A DNA stretch of 64,000 nucleotides from positions 930,001 to 994,000 of the forward strand of contig BPGK01000001.1 of assembly GCA_026002995.1 (NCBI GenBank), read 5' to 3'. This document shows, in pieces, positions 21,207-60,515 of this stretch. Within the stretch, counting starts at the first letter, position 1. Every line of letters starts with the position of its first letter. The notes below the pieces were generated by a model. The model had not been told where the DNA came from, ran no database searches, and was given only the letters and a program-made list of their open reading frames with translations. The stretch comes from Gaiellaceae bacterium (GTDB lineage Bacteria > Actinomycetota > Thermoleophilia > Gaiellales > Gaiellaceae). The position numbers were made by a program, and so were the translations under genes.

Positions 21207-22661
21207 ATGAGCGAGCGCGCCGGACGAGCCCCCGACTTCCGCCCCGACCTGATCGTCGTCGGCGGCGGCGTCGCCGGCCTCTTCGCGGCCCTGTGCGCCG
21301 CGCAGGAGGGCCGGGTGCTCGTCCTCTCGAAGGCGCCGCTCAGCGTGACGACGAGCACCCTCGCGCAGGGCGGCATCGCGGCCGCGATCGGCGAGGACGA
21401 CACGCCCTCGCTCCATGCCGCGGACACTGCACGCGCGGGACGAGGGCTCGTGCGACCGAGCGCCGTCGCCGTGCTCACCGAGGAGGCACCCGCGCGGATC
21501 CGCGATCTCGAAGAGCTCGGCGTCGAGTTCGACGAGGGGCTCTCGCTCGAGGGAGGCCACTCGAGGCGGCGAGTCGTCCACGCAGGCGGCGCCGCGACCG
21601 GTGACCGGGTCGCGCGGGTGCTCGCCGGGCGCGTGCTCGCGCATCCCCGCATTCGTGTGCTCGAAGGGGTCTGCCTGCGCGAGCTCCGAGTGGATCGCGG
21701 GCGCTGCGTCGGCGTCGTCACCGACCGAGGCACGATCTCCGCGCGGGCGACGCTCCTCGCCACGGGAGGCGCCGCCGCGCTCTGGTGGCGAACGACGAAC
21801 CCTCCCGGCTCGACTGGGGACGGGATCGCTGCCGCCTACCGCGCGGGAGCGGCGATCGCAGATCTCGAGTTCACGCAGTTCCATCCGACGGCTCTCGTCG
21901 ACTCGTCGCTCCTCCTCTCGGAGGCGCTCCGCGGCGAGGGCGCCTTGCTCCTCGACGAGAGCGGCCGTCGCTTCACGGACGAGCTGGCTCCACGAGACGT
22001 GGTCGCGCGGGAGATCGCGGCTCGGGGGACGGCGCTCCTCGACCTGCGCGAGATCGATCGCGAGCGCTTCCCCGAGCTCATGTCGAGCCTTCGGGAACGC
22101 GGCTACGACGCGTCGGCGGCTCCGATCCCGGTGGCACCGGCGGCGCACTACTTCGTGGGAGGGATCGTGACCGACCTGGACGGGCGCAGCGAGCTCCCCG
22201 GCCTGTACGCGGCGGGCGAGTGCGCCGCGACTGGGGTGCACGGGGCGAACCGGCTCGCGTCGAACTCGCTGCTCGAGTGTCTCGTCTTCGGACGAAGGGC
22301 CGCGCTCGCGGCGCTCGGCGATTCGGCGGGGTCTACGGCGGGGTCAGGTCCCGATCGTTGCGCACGATGGGGGCGCAACGATCGGGACCTGACCCCGGGG
22401 CGTTGCGCTGTCGAGCGGGTCACCGCCGAGCTGCGGCAGGCGCTCTGGCGCGACTGCGGCCTCGTCCGCGATGCCGCCGGGCTCGAGCGGCTGCGCCGCA
22501 CGCCGCACCTGCTCGCGTCGCTGATCGCGCAGAGCGCGCTCGTGCGCGAGGAGAGCCGCGGCTCGCACTTCCGCGCCGACTTCCCCGCCGAAGACCCCGC
22601 CTTCGAGCGCCACGTCGTCCTCCGTCGTGGATGCGAGCCGACGCTGGAGAGGTGGTTGTGA
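21207..22661 (+). CDS. nadB: L-aspartate oxidase, with an inserted palindromic element
   Basis: The 484-residue flavoprotein oxidises L-aspartate to iminoaspartate, the first step of de novo NAD synthesis. It has the FAD motif [36 protein letters not shown], and [20 protein letters not shown] followed by [15 protein letters not shown]. The C-terminal helical domain contains [21 protein letters not shown] (written here as [10 protein letters not shown] and [11 protein letters not shown]). Residues about 378-397, in the variable linker before that domain, are encoded by a 59-bp perfect hairpin (22339-22397) that keeps the frame. The ATG at 21207 follows the operator. The stop overlaps nadC. Confidence 0.93.
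22339..22397. repeat. GGGGTCAGGTC palindromic element A, in frame within nadB
   Basis: Two 25-nt arms (22339-22363 and 22373-22397) are perfect reverse complements around a nine-base loop. From the outside inward each arm reads GGGGTCAGGTC, then CCGATC, then GTTGCGC. It shares the layout GGGGTCAGGTC-N6-GTT(G/C)C with elements B and C, but its six variable bases are its own. It adds about 20 residues to NadB without shifting the frame. Confidence 0.9.
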
Positions 22662-48044: not shown

Positions 48045-48055
48045 TCCTCTCGCAG

Positions 48056-48268
48056 GGTGGGGATCCGCAAGGAGCGGATCCCCACCCCGCGGCGATCCTG
48101 AAGCGCGCCCGCGTCCGCGGGCGCTCGTCGCAGCGCTCGTCCGTCCCGGGCGGCGCAGCCCGGGGATCCGCAAGGAGCGGATCCCCACCCCGCGGCGATC
48201 CTGAAGCGCGCCCGCGTCCGCGGGCGCTCGTCGCAGCGCTCGTCCGTCCCCGGGCGGCGCAGCCCGGG
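48056..48268. repeat. Two tandem 103-bp units, each with stem-loops
   Basis: A unit starting at 48059 recurs at 48162 almost unchanged, with one extra base late in the second copy. Each has GGATCCGC and GCGGATCC around a five-base loop; in the first unit the stem is 13 bp (48056-48068 with 48074-48086). Each also has a GCCCGGG-type stem near its end. The array fills the space between the converging substrate-binding and phosphatase genes, so it may end transcription from both sides. Confidence 0.85.
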
Positions 48269-52588: not shown

Positions 52589-52680
52589 ACCGCGCAACAC
52601 CGGGGTCAGGTCTCTCGTGTTGCACGCGAAGCACCGAGCGGGCGCGCAACGAAGCGGACCTGACCCCCGCTGTTGCGCGG
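52589..52680. repeat. GGGGTCAGGTC palindromic element B (intergenic)
   Basis: GGGGTCAGGTC at 52602-52612 faces GACCTGACCCC at 52657-52667. The inner arms read TCTCGT-GTTGC (left) and, on the complement, CGCTTC-GTTGC (right), so the six-base variable part does not match fully in this copy. An outer CCGCGCAACA/TGTTGCGCGG pair (52589-52598 and 52671-52680) encloses it. It lies between two converging genes. Confidence 0.85.
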
Positions 52681-55258: not shown

Positions 55259-56044
55259 TCACCGGCCGGTGAACCGCGGAGCCCGCTTCTCGAGGAACGC
55301 CGCCACGCCCTCGGCGCCGTCCTCCGACTCGAGGCAGCGGCGAAAGCCGTCCGCTTCGCGACGGAGGCCCTCTTCGAGTGGCAGATCGCGCGTCGTTCGC
55401 GCGAGCTCCCGCAGGACCGCCACCGCGAACGGCGAGCGCTCCGTGATCGTGCGCGCGATGCCGAGCGCGGCGTCGAGGAGCTCTCCCCTCGGAACGACCT
55501 TCTCCACGAGCCCCCAGTCGTACGCCGTCTCGGCATCGATGAAGTCGCCCGTGAGGTTGAGGAGCAGGGCGCGTCCGATCCCGACGAGCCGTGGCAGCCG
55601 CTGCGTGCCGCCTCCGCCGGGGATGAGGCCGAGCTTGATCTCCGGTTGTCCGAGCTGAGCATCGTCCGAGCAGATGCGGATGTCGCAGCACATCGCGAGC
55701 TCGAGGCCGCCGCCCAGGCAGAAGCCGTGGATGGCGGCGATGAACGGCGTCCGCGCGGCGTCCATACGGGCTCCGAGCCTCTGGATCCCGCGCGCCGACC
55801 CCTGCTCCTGGGCCTCACGCGCCGCCTCGCGGAGCGAGGGGAACTCCGAGATGTCGGCGCCGGCGACGAAGGCCTTGTCGCCCGCGCCTCGGAGCACGAT
55901 CGCGCGCACCTCGTCGTCGACGTCGAGGGCGTCGAGCTCCGTCTCGAGCTCGTCGAGGAGGGCGGCTGAGAGCGCGTTGACCGGCGGGTGGTCGATTGTG
56001 ACGATCGCGACCGCGCCGTCACGCTCCGTCGAGATGAAGGCCAC
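55259..56044 (-). CDS. Enoyl-CoA hydratase/isomerase family protein
   Basis: The 261-residue crotonase-fold protein has VTIDHPPVNALSAALLDELE, the oxyanion-hole regions FVAGADISEF and IHGFCLGGGLELAMCCDIRI, and the catalytic-glutamate region QPEIKLGLIPGGGGTQRLPR. It hydrates trans-2-enoyl-CoA in beta-oxidation. The GTG at 56042-56044 overlaps the synthetase stop by one base. The length is normal. Confidence 0.93.
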   Translation of the reverse strand: MAFISTERDGAVAIVTIDHPPVNALSAALLDELETELDALDVDDEVRAIVLRGAGDKAFVAGADISEFPSLREAAREAQEQGSARGIQRLGARMDAARTPFIAAIHGFCLGGGLELAMCCDIRICSDDAQLGQPEIKLGLIPGGGGTQRLPRLVGIGRALLLNLTGDFIDAETAYDWGLVEKVVPRGELLDAALGIARTITERSPFAVAVLRELARTTRDLPLEEGLRREADGFRRCLESEDGAEGVAAFLEKRAPRFTGR

Positions 56045-57657
56045 TACGCCCTCTCCGCGGGTTGCTGGGCGAACTGCTCGCGCAGCGCCGTCTTCCGGAA
56101 CTTCCCGACCGCGGTCTTCGGGATCTCGTCGACGAACTCGAACCGGTCGGGCAACCACCACTTCGCGAAGTTCGGCGCCAGGAACTCTCGGAGCTCCTCG
56201 GGCGACACCTGTGCGCCCTCCTTGAGCACGACCACCGCGAGCGGGCGCTCGGACCAGCGCTCGTCCGGGACGGCGATGACTGCCGCCTCTGCTACTGCCG
56301 GGTGCCCCATGAGCGCGTTCTCGAGCGCCACGGTGGAGATCCACTCGCCGCCCGACTTGACGAGGTCTTTCGCTCGATCCTGCACCTCGACGAAGCCGTC
56401 GGGGTGGATCGTGACGATGTCGCCGGTCTTGAACCAGCCGTCGTCGGTCCAACGGTCGGCTGCTTCGTCGGACGCGTAGTAGGCCGACGCGATCGACGGG
56501 CCACGGACTTCGAGCTCACCCATCGACTGGCCGTCCCAGGGGACGAGGCCCTCGGGGCCCCGGGCGCGGATCTCGACGAAGGGGATCGGCAATCCCTGCA
56601 GCGCGCGCCGGGCGTACGCCTCCTCCTTCGAGAGGCCGATCTCCTGCCCGGGCGCGCCGGAGAGCGTGCCGACTGGGCTCATCTCCGTCATCCCCCATCC
56701 GTGGACGACGTGGAGGCCGTGCCGCTCGCCGAAGGCTTCGATCATGGCGCGCGGAGGAGCGGCGCCACCGACCGTCATCATCCGGATCGAGGAGAGATCC
56801 CAGCGACCCGGGTTCGCGTCGAGCGCCTGCAGGATCCCCATCCAGATCGTGGGGACACCTGCGGTGATCGTGACCCGCTGCGACTCGAGCCCGTCGAGCA
56901 GCGTCTCGGGATCCATGTGCGGGCCGGGGAAGACCTGCTTGCTGCCGACCATCGTCGATGCGAACGGGAAGCACCACGCGTTCGCGTGGAACATCGGGAC
57001 GACGGGCAGCGACACGTCTCCCGCGTGAATCCCGAGGCACGCGTTCACCGTGAGCGCGTGAATGGCGATGGCGCGGTGGGAGTAGAGAACGCCCTTCGGT
57101 CGCCCGGTCGTTCCGCTCGTGTAGCACATCGCTGCAGCGGTACGTTCGGGGAGGTCGCGGTACGCGAAGTCGGACTCGTTCGCGTCGGCCAGGAGCTCCT
57201 CGTAGTCGATCGTTCCCTCCGGGGCATCCCCGGCGCCGACGGCGATGACGTGTTCGAAGTTGCAGCGTGGAATGAACTGCGCCGCGAGCGGCCACAGCGT
57301 CTTGTCGACGAGGAGCACGCGGTCACCGCCGTGGGTCGCGATGTAGACGTTGTCGTCGGGGTGGAGACGGAGATTCAGCGTGTGCGTCACGAAGCCACCC
57401 ACCGGTGCTCCGATGTAGACCTCGAGGTGCTGCGAGTGGTTCCACATGAACGTCCCGACGCGATCGCCGTCCTCGAGCCCGAGCTTGCGCAGCGCGACGA
57501 CGAGCCTCTTCGTGCGGGAGACGAAGTCCGCGTACGTGTAGGTGTGCCAGCTCTTGTCGGGGAGGCGGCTCGCGATCTCGTTGTCCCCGTACAGCTCGTC
57601 GGCGCGCTTGAGGATGGCAGGCACGTTGAGCTGGTAGTCCATCATCAGGCCGTCCAC
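56044..57657 (-). CDS. Long/medium-chain fatty acid-CoA ligase (acyl-CoA synthetase)
   Basis: The 537-residue AMP-binding enzyme activates a carboxylic acid to its CoA ester. It has the phosphate loop CYTSGTTGRPKGVLYSHRA, VVPMFHANAWCFPFA, GWGMTEMSPVGTLS and the hinge region TGDIVTIHPDGFVEVQDRAKDL (GDIVTIHPDG and EVQDRAKDL) with KSGGEWIS. The catalytic lysine region is IPKTAVGKFRKTALR. The GTG at 57655-57657 has AAGGAGG six bases upstream; a later ATG at 57645 is possible. The stop of the preceding dehydrogenase overlaps this start region. Confidence 0.93.
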   Translation of the reverse strand: MDGLMMDYQLNVPAILKRADELYGDNEIASRLPDKSWHTYTYADFVSRTKRLVVALRKLGLEDGDRVGTFMWNHSQHLEVYIGAPVGGFVTHTLNLRLHPDDNVYIATHGGDRVLLVDKTLWPLAAQFIPRCNFEHVIAVGAGDAPEGTIDYEELLADANESDFAYRDLPERTAAAMCYTSGTTGRPKGVLYSHRAIAIHALTVNACLGIHAGDVSLPVVPMFHANAWCFPFASTMVGSKQVFPGPHMDPETLLDGLESQRVTITAGVPTIWMGILQALDANPGRWDLSSIRMMTVGGAAPPRAMIEAFGERHGLHVVHGWGMTEMSPVGTLSGAPGQEIGLSKEEAYARRALQGLPIPFVEIRARGPEGLVPWDGQSMGELEVRGPSIASAYYASDEAADRWTDDGWFKTGDIVTIHPDGFVEVQDRAKDLVKSGGEWISTVALENALMGHPAVAEAAVIAVPDERWSERPLAVVVLKEGAQVSPEELREFLAPNFAKWWLPDRFEFVDEIPKTAVGKFRKTALREQFAQQPAERA

Positions 57658-57658
57658 G

Positions 57659-58660
57659 TCAGCCTCCTTGGGTGGTTGGTGCGAGCGCGGGGTCAGGTCT
57701 TCCATGTTCCGGACGCAGATCCGGAACGTGGAAGACCTGACCCCCTTCGAGCAGCGCGGCCGCGATCTCGGCTCTGAGCCGGGTGGTCGAGGGTCCGAAG
57801 CTCTGGATCCAGAGCGCGCGCTTGTACAGCCGATGGAGCACGTGCTCCCATGTGAAGCCGATCCCGCCGTGCACCTGGATTGACGTCTCGCACACCCGTA
57901 CCGCTGCCTCTGTCGCGTGCGCTCTTGCAGCAGCGGCTGCGATCCGCGCCCGCTCGTCGCCCTCGGCGACGCACCAGGCCGCCCACAGTGCGAGCGAGCG
58001 GGCGAGCTCGAGCTGCGTGTACGCGTCGGCGAGCGGGTGCGCGACCGCCTGGTAGACCCCGATCTTCTTCCCGAACTGCTCGCGGCTCGCGGCATATTCG
58101 ATCGCGAGCTCGAGGGCTCGTCTGGCGACGCCACAGGCTTCGACCGCGAGTGCGGCGTTGCTCCGGGTGGCGATCTCCTCAAGCACGGTCGAGTCAGCGA
58201 GTCGGCGCCCGACGGTGCCGCCTCGTACGACGCCGAGCGGCCGAGTCTCGTCGGTGGTCGTCAGAACCTCGCGCTCGGCACCCTCGAGCTCGTAGATCCC
58301 ATCTCCGCCGACGGTCGCGATGCGATCAGCGGTGTCGAGGTCGGGCACCAGTGGCCCGAGGGCGAGTGTCCAGCTCGTCGTCCCCGCTGCGACCTCCGCC
58401 CGCAGGTCGTCGGGCAGCGCAGGCAGCGCGAGCGCGAACGTCGAGAAGAAGGGGCCGTGGTAGAGCGCACGCCCGAGCTCCTCGTAGAGGACGGCCTCTT
58501 CGACGAAGCCGGCACCGACTCCGCCTGCCTCCTCGGCTATCGAGACGCCCGTCCACCCGAGCTCGGCGAGCTCGGCGAAGCTGGGCTCGGGGTTCGCCTC
58601 GAGGAAGTCACGTGCCTGCTTGCGGAGCGCGTCCTGCTCGGGGGTGAAGGTGAAGTCCAT
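57659..58660 (-). CDS. Acyl-CoA dehydrogenase with a repeat-encoded C-terminal tail
   Basis: The 333-residue protein is a short acyl-CoA dehydrogenase. It starts with MDFTFTPEQDALRKQARDFL (FTFTPEQDALRKQ), has a divergent middle domain, then ASREQFGKKIGVYQAVAHPLAD and VHGGIGFTWEHVLHRLYKRALW. The recognisable domain ends near EIAAALLEG. The last 25 or so residues (GQVFHVPDLRPEHGRP and onward) are encoded by palindromic element C and the bases after it. The low-conservation middle resembles the small subunit of heteromeric dehydrogenases, and the neighbour at 58666 would be its partner. Confidence 0.88.
   Translation of the reverse strand: MDFTFTPEQDALRKQARDFLEANPEPSFAELAELGWTGVSIAEEAGGVGAGFVEEAVLYEELGRALYHGPFFSTFALALPALPDDLRAEVAAGTTSWTLALGPLVPDLDTADRIATVGGDGIYELEGAEREVLTTTDETRPLGVVRGGTVGRRLADSTVLEEIATRSNAALAVEACGVARRALELAIEYAASREQFGKKIGVYQAVAHPLADAYTQLELARSLALWAAWCVAEGDERARIAAAAARAHATEAAVRVCETSIQVHGGIGFTWEHVLHRLYKRALWIQSFGPSTTRLRAEIAAALLEGGQVFHVPDLRPEHGRPDPALAPTTQGG
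57689..57744. repeat. GGGGTCAGGTC palindromic element C, at the 3' end of an acyl-CoA dehydrogenase gene
   Basis: The 25-nt arms (57689-57713 and 57720-57744) are complementary except at one position, around a six-base loop. Each reads GGGGTCAGGTC, six variable bases (TTCCAT on the left, TTCCAC on the complement of the right), then GTTCCGGA. It is translated on the minus strand as the C-terminal tail of the dehydrogenase and lies just before the synthetase gene. Confidence 0.9.
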
Positions 58661-59852: not shown

Positions 59853-59869
59853 CGCAGGTGTCTGACACC
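59853..59869. repeat. Left flanking copy of the RAYT palindrome
   Basis: CGCAGGTGTCTGACACC, with core palindrome GGTGTCTGACACC, lies upstream of the transposase gene. It is the exact reverse complement of 60499-60515. A surrounding CTCGC/GCGAG pair adds an outer stem. Confidence 0.85.
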
Positions 59870-59952
59870 CCGTGTTAAGCGAGTGTGCCAAGTCCGCGCC
59901 GATGTCTCCACGGCGAGTGCCCGGCGGATCGGCTCGCCGTACGGTTCGTGAC

Positions 59953-60507
59953 GTGGCCCGACCTCCGCGAACCTTCGTGCCAGGTGGCGTGTACCACGTC
60001 TACTCGAGGGGATCCAGCCAACAACCGATCTTTCTGCACGAGGGCGATCGCACGGACTTCCTGATCTGCCTCGACGGCGTGGTTTCTCGGTCGGGGCTCC
60101 GATGTCTTGCCTACTGCCTCATGGGCAACCACTACCACCTCGTAGTGCAAACCGACGACGGGCAGCTCTCGAGCGCCATGAAGGCGTTGAACGGACGCTA
60201 CTCACTGCGGTTCAATCGTCGGCACGGCCGAGATGCCCACCTCTTCAAGAACCGTTTCGGTGCGGTCGAGCAGAAGTCCACTTCACAGCTGCTCTGGGCG
60301 GTTCGCTATGTGATTAGGAACCCCGTCGAGGAGGGGCTCTGCGCGGCCCCAGAGCAATGGCGCTGGAGCAGCTACCGCGCCTCGATCGGGCTCGAGCAAG
60401 CGCCGCGTTTCCTCGACGTCGCCCGACTGCTCTCGTATCTCGGGAACTCGGCCGATCGCGCCAGGATCGCGCTCGTAGGTCTCGTCTCCGATGTGGTCGG
60501 TGTCTGA
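59953..60507 (+). CDS. REP-associated tyrosine transposase (RAYT, Y1_Tnp family)
   Basis: The 184-residue protein is an IS200/IS605-like HUH enzyme of the REP-associated group. It starts RPPRTFVPGGVYHVYSRGS, has the HUH pair H60 and H62 in CLMGNHYHLVV, and the tyrosine region RYVIRNPVEEG with Y119. FNRRHGRDAHLFKNRF lies between. Such enzymes act on single-stranded hairpins and are thought to move REP/REPIN elements. The GTG at 59953 matches the usual start; an ATG at 59902 is possible. Perfect 17-bp inverted repeats lie on both sides, and the right one contains the stop codon. Confidence 0.9.
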   Translation: MARPPRTFVPGGVYHVYSRGSSQQPIFLHEGDRTDFLICLDGVVSRSGLRCLAYCLMGNHYHLVVQTDDGQLSSAMKALNGRYSLRFNRRHGRDAHLFKNRFGAVEQKSTSQLLWAVRYVIRNPVEEGLCAAPEQWRWSSYRASIGLEQAPRFLDVARLLSYLGNSADRARIALVGLVSDVVGV

Positions 60508-60515
60508 CACCTGCG
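60499..60515. repeat. Right flanking copy of the RAYT palindrome
   Basis: GGTGTCTGACACCTGCG is the inverted copy of 59853-59869. The transposase stop codon (60505-60507) is formed by the TGA in its centre. Confidence 0.85.

Follow-up and report, generated by a model that had tools for sequence, protein, structure and literature searches.

In a genome of 2,622,036 bases (2.62 Mb), from an uncultured bacterium and assembled as a single contig, the window analysed here covers the 64,000 nucleotides 930001-994000. It holds an acyl-CoA dehydrogenase gene followed on the same strand by an acyl-CoA synthetase gene (Table 1). Judged by the dehydrogenase, the relatives of the genome are metagenome-assembled Actinomycetota. 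The Pfam Acyl-CoA_dh_1 match of the enzyme covers residues 169-303, and AlphaFold (28 aligned sequences) places the last helix at residues 292-306, with pLDDT below 50 over residues 309-333, which are predicted to be disordered. The C-terminal end of the ORF reads ..ALLE-GGQVFHVPDLRPEHGRPDP-ALAPTTQGG; past the last helix lie 28 residues, of which 19 cover a palindrome and the remainder are ALAPTTQGG. As the earlier note had it, the dehydrogenase stop codon (TGA, 57661-57659) falls beside the ribosome-binding region of the synthetase gene, after AAGGAGG. A tRNA was the only Rfam match over the window.

Table 1. Coordinates of the locus and of related features, numbered within the window unless marked as genome positions.
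Feature	Position	Strand	Remarks
Acyl-CoA dehydrogenase ORF, 333 aa	57659..58660	-	Fold to ~residue 306; tail 309-333 predicted disordered
56-bp palindromic element, GTTCC subtype of the GGGGTCAGGTC family	57689..57744	-	Read in the GQV..PDP frame
Non-element tail end ALAPTTQGG	57662..57688	-	Its QGG end recurs in congeners
Shine-Dalgarno AAGGAGG of the synthetase gene	57663..57669	-	Overlaps last dehydrogenase codons
AMP-binding acyl-CoA synthetase gene	56044..57657	-	GTG start at 57657
Element in NadB linker, 57 bp, GTTGC subtype	22340..22396	+	In frame, 19-residue peptide
66-bp intergenic element, same family	52602..52667	.	Between convergent genes
Third RAYT-like Y1 transposase gene	59872..60507	+	Between GGTGTCTGACACC arms (59857-59869, 60499-60511)
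Putative element-arm start codons	genome 1007511, 1368400, 2104556		LepA, MtnA, PlsY, respectively

The 56-bp palindrome lies entirely within the dehydrogenase ORF, in frame and 30 nt from its end, and encodes GGQVFHVPDLRPEHGRPDP. It matches its own reverse complement at 48 of 56 positions, the rest being six loop bases and one mismatched pair, and the local RNA fold is a hairpin (z = -5.1) that ends 19 nt before AAGGAGG. A strict test for perfect arms found only 8 bp here, with 9 of 300 shuffles as good; this low score reflects the one mismatch that interrupts the 25-bp arms, and the short loops to which the test was confined. Genome-wide, the GGGGTCAGGTC arm occurs in 155 copies (69 forward, 86 reverse; backwards control, 0 + 0), and both exact arms are present at 16 sites, against none for the control. 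Chance as the source of the palindrome in the dehydrogenase is ruled out by this copy number. When joined at 300 bases the arm copies form 63 clusters, in which two-armed members have the plus arm or arms before the minus arm or arms, inverted and forming a hairpin, and lone arms also occur. There are two arm subtypes, continuing as TTCCAYGTTCC or as ..GTTGC. Across the 16 copies in which both arms are exact, 61 of the 96 possible frames can be read through, so that survival in frame should be easy. Copies of the arm number from 0 to 28 across ten congeners, and a BLAST search of the element against plasmids returned no match. Many copies show a partly duplicated arm, which points to slippage at the base of the hairpin. 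One element has six minus arms beside it (genome 561811-561987), and the last five of these follow each other head to tail every 24 bp. Separately, two direct repeats of ~100 bp at 48051-48253 of the window, each with a GGGATCCGC..GCGGATCCC palindrome, lie just past a gene end.

A search of 61 genomes yielded eight same-genus orthologues of the dehydrogenase (73-82% protein identity), contig loci that repeat several of these genomes being counted once; G001 and G008, two further congeners with no more than weak matches, are outside the eight. In seven of these orthologues the tail is 17-20 residues long, unrelated in sequence to the element tail and without GGGGTCAGGTC, and ends at the Shine-Dalgarno with the stop directly after (QGG in six, EGG in one). 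The best perfect arms within these seven tails are 5-7 bp, and for each of them at least 36 of 300 shuffles did as well. The eighth, from G006, carries a different palindrome, GGTGCCTGGCTTGAGCCAGGCACC, at the same place with the frame running on; its arms are 11 bp, and 1 of 300 shuffles gave arms as long. At this G006 junction between dehydrogenase and synthetase, where the palindrome reads GGTGCCTGGC..GCCAGGCACC, the synthetase gene is missing its first ~24 codons, through either a deletion or an assembly fault.

The comparison indicates that the dehydrogenase tail was already variable before the element was inserted, and as the stop and QGG end recur in congeners without the element, the latter would have entered this pre-existing tail instead of creating a C-terminus. 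The proposal that the palindrome had become the C-terminus of the protein fails on that ground, and the element was likewise rejected as the source of the stop codon, since stop and Shine-Dalgarno both recur. What stands of the proposal that the tail derives from the element is the part up to PDP; ALAPTTQGG and the stop do not, given that QGG or EGG with the stop recurs in 7/8 congeners. Orthologues with a tail of the same sequence and no palindrome, named in advance as contrary evidence, were sought and found in 0/8 congeners. The element gives 19 residues, yet the tail that bears it exceeds those of the congeners by only 8-11, and part of the ancestral tail must thus have been lost, or the ancestral tail was shorter; this was not a clean insertion. 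With congeners 73-82% identical in protein, and no empty site in a near-identical strain, the exact borders and any target duplication are unreadable.

The placement of the clusters was examined on genes called with a home-made codon-usage caller, not a standard tool. As many as 49 of the 63 touch no predicted gene (27 in tandem, 20 in convergent and 2 in divergent gaps) and 14 overlap one; random placement on the gene map of the window predicts ~6.7 wholly non-coding clusters (maximum 16 in 2000 trials). Wholly within genes lie seven, including two lone arms, where random placement expects 50.7, and the remaining seven overlaps are at the 3' end in three cases (one ArgS, one a RAYT gene) and at the 5' end in four. 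The five complete in-gene elements, 50-92 bp long, are in the dehydrogenase, CarB, an error-prone DNA polymerase, a Lhr-like helicase and NadB; their peptides have only GQV..PDP in common, in 4/5, and the NadB copy uses another frame. The earlier note held that a member of the repeat family had entered coding sequence, as a second such case, and both points are upheld; the first case in the window lies in NadB. Its suggestion of a possible rule, by which insertion takes place close to the ends of genes or within linkers, is half borne out: the complete in-gene elements are all in loops, linkers or tails, and most clusters of the family touch no predicted gene. Among the 49 intergenic clusters, six, every one of the GTTCC subtype, begin within 3 nt of a stop codon, where even placement within the gaps predicts 2.3 (uncorrected P ~0.02); a target preference for stop codons is only suggested. 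In G008 we sampled 11 stretches that hold 23 of its 28 arm hits, five lone arms being left out: 5/11 overlap a predicted gene and 6/11 are intergenic. In three of the 11 a neighbouring gene relies on the element's outer base to complete its stop codon, and in one stretch each the element gives the last residues plus stop, and a possible start.

Three Y1 transposase genes are present in the genome, all over the cut-off of Pfam Y1_Tnp. In the first, RAYT1 (~495.6 kb), the Y1 domain lies between inverted GTTCC-subtype arms, and the second, RAYT2 (1287 kb), lies between GTTGC-subtype arms; the best NCBIfam match of both is REP_Tyr_transpos. Against this curated RAYT model the three proteins score 79.9, 79.0 and 64.9 bits, with a cut-off of 80. 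The third gene, within the window itself, was considered as cognate to the dehydrogenase element and is not favoured: it lies between GGTGTCTGACACC arms, not GGGGTCAGGTC arms, and is probably not its partner.

Together, we consider it highly probable that a non-autonomous REP/REPIN-like element, spread by a RAYT, landed in the variable tail of the dehydrogenase and persisted there. The short palindrome would make up the tail segment, and most likely owes its spread to the RAYT-type Y1 (HUH) transposase at ~495.6 kb, whose Y1 domain is flanked by arms of the same GTTCC subtype. It would have landed in a variable, unstructured tail, upstream of the overlapping stop and Shine-Dalgarno, and may have persisted because the inserted frame was open, the tail tolerant of almost any sequence, and neither the stop nor the Shine-Dalgarno that serves the synthetase was disrupted. 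We infer from sequence all three of RAYT mobilisation (from the flanking arms alone), translation of the segment, and neutrality.

The palindrome might instead be kept as a regulatory RNA hairpin before the synthetase Shine-Dalgarno, acting in coupling, mRNA stability or termination. Its strong fold and short distance from AAGGAGG are consistent with such a role, as are the different palindrome at the same junction in G006, and the preponderance of tandem and convergent over divergent gaps among intergenic copies. We nevertheless judge this unlikely, as 7/8 congener orthologues have no such element, ribosomes completing the dehydrogenase would melt the hairpin, and an intrinsic terminator is contradicted by the lack of a U-run after it. 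Somewhat less likely again is a palindromic family that the resident RAYTs do not move, whether it was dispersed by another transposase or arose through replication slippage only. The sub-threshold scores of all three Y1 proteins against the curated NCBIfam model, together with the tandem, slippage-like arm duplications, would fit this; against it, arms of matching subtype surround two of the RAYT genes, and copies dispersed among unrelated genes require transposition of some form.

An assembly or sequencing artefact is very improbable. Hairpins can disturb assembly, and both the splitting of ArgS at an element and the G006 locus without its synthetase start could be taken as signs of this, yet five complete elements lie inside long intact ORFs with the frame open, and the family recurs in G008, a separate assembly. 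It is scarcely credible that the segment is an ordinary tail of palindromic look by accident: dehydrogenase tails do vary in all congeners, but this one is among the 16 exact two-armed copies that the control lacks, and nearly the same peptide occurs in CarB.

In CarB the same element is read in the same frame, giving RGQVFHVPGLEHGRPDP. Five congeners (G003, G004, G005 on two contigs, G006 and G010) are free of any insert in the loop that receives it, whereas G008 and G009 carry other inserts there, the G008 one having 13-bp perfect arms (0/300 shuffles). In the solved E. coli CarB chain 1bxr the corresponding part of the loop is shorter and differs in sequence. Six congeners span the polymerase site: G004 and G007 have no insert, and G001, G006, G009 and G010 have other inserts, of which that of G009 has 15-bp perfect arms (0/300 shuffles) and that of G006 contains an 11-mer present 17 times in the G006 genome (control, 0). 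Inserts thus occur in this loop in 5/7 genus members that span the site, our genome included, and are of at least three sequence kinds; since inserts common to several congeners may be inherited, such counts are of species, not events. On the perfect-arm test the CarB insert of G009 and the polymerase inserts of G001, G006 and G010 are not palindromic, and we do not claim that all congener inserts are palindromes; only the G008 CarB, G009 polymerase and G006 dehydrogenase inserts stand out. The linker of the Lhr-like helicase is short and without the element in the eight congeners that span it, and that of NadB is variable, with the element peptide in none of seven aligned congeners.

Palindromic repeats of this general kind are known elsewhere. 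One study (PMC3733652) describes GTAG- and CGTC-tagged REPs as palindromic, often in inverted pairs, and mostly in tandem or convergent intergenic spaces, sometimes wholly inside ORFs to which they add residues, tRNA synthetases, RNA helicases and DnaE2 being among the hosts; stop codons are frequently supplied by the ends of REPs, and recB of two species has different REPs at about the same site. The present family resembles these REPs in its inverted palindromic pairs, tandem and convergent gaps and residue-adding copies within ORFs, but differs in arms that start GGGG(TCAGGTC), thus GGGGTCAGGTC and neither tag, and in its host, a Thermoleophilia/Gaiellaceae-type actinobacterium. REPINs (PMC3116915) consist of two inverted repeat units that form one hairpin, are dispersed, and are tied to a resident RAYT gene. 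The likeness extends to the inverted two-unit hairpin, the dispersal and the resident Y1 RAYT genes flanked by the same repeat; REPINs number ~1000 repeats versus tens of clusters here, where five complete elements are in genes. A short dispersed palindrome with inverted units, a RAYT-type gene flanked by the same repeat and a mainly extragenic location are features that the family has in common with RAYT-moved REP/REPIN elements. Rickettsia palindromic elements (PMC10969869) are ~150 bp, have a conserved peptide, and are in frame in unrelated genes, nearly half of them being in genes. Ours are likewise palindromic and in frame in unrelated genes, but the dehydrogenase copy is 56 bp and in-gene copies 50-92 bp, there is no fully conserved peptide, and most of the family lies between genes. 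In-frame insertion as part of RAYT/REP biology is already in print for other bacteria; new here are the sequence of the arm, the lineage of the host and the comparison among orthologues. Literature searches found no paper on palindromic repeats with a transposase in Gaiellales, and none relevant by title on the arm string, the eight papers that contain this string having titles on other subjects.

More broadly, we put forward tentatively that across the genus a few tolerant loops and tails in housekeeping proteins (the CarB ATP-grasp loop, the error-prone polymerase loop and the dehydrogenase tail) may be hit again and again, in different species, by palindromic mobile elements unrelated to each other, and that elements may also supply starts (LepA, PlsY, MtnA), split ArgS, and steadily write new segments into core genes. 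The present case would show, within one genome, how a mobile palindrome turns into protein sequence without breaking its host. CarB, the polymerase and the dehydrogenase each offer orthologues that have the insert and others that lack it, in which the cost of such segments is measurable, as is that of a possible break in an essential tRNA synthetase. ArgS here takes the form of two ORFs, one base out of frame with each other, with the break at an element (genome 1195250-1195336) between catalytic core and anticodon-binding domain; the two parts are in one frame in all eight congeners with a match covering both, and no second full copy was seen in its own genome. Gene finders should be used with caution here, as start codons and tails in this genome can be element-derived. 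In LepA, PlsY and MtnA an in-arm ATG (M.DLTP) is the only in-frame ATG, GTG or TTG from the upstream stop to the next 28 codons, and the element may supply the only plausible start codon of these genes, before which no clear Shine-Dalgarno was seen. LysC has alternative start codons besides the element ATG.
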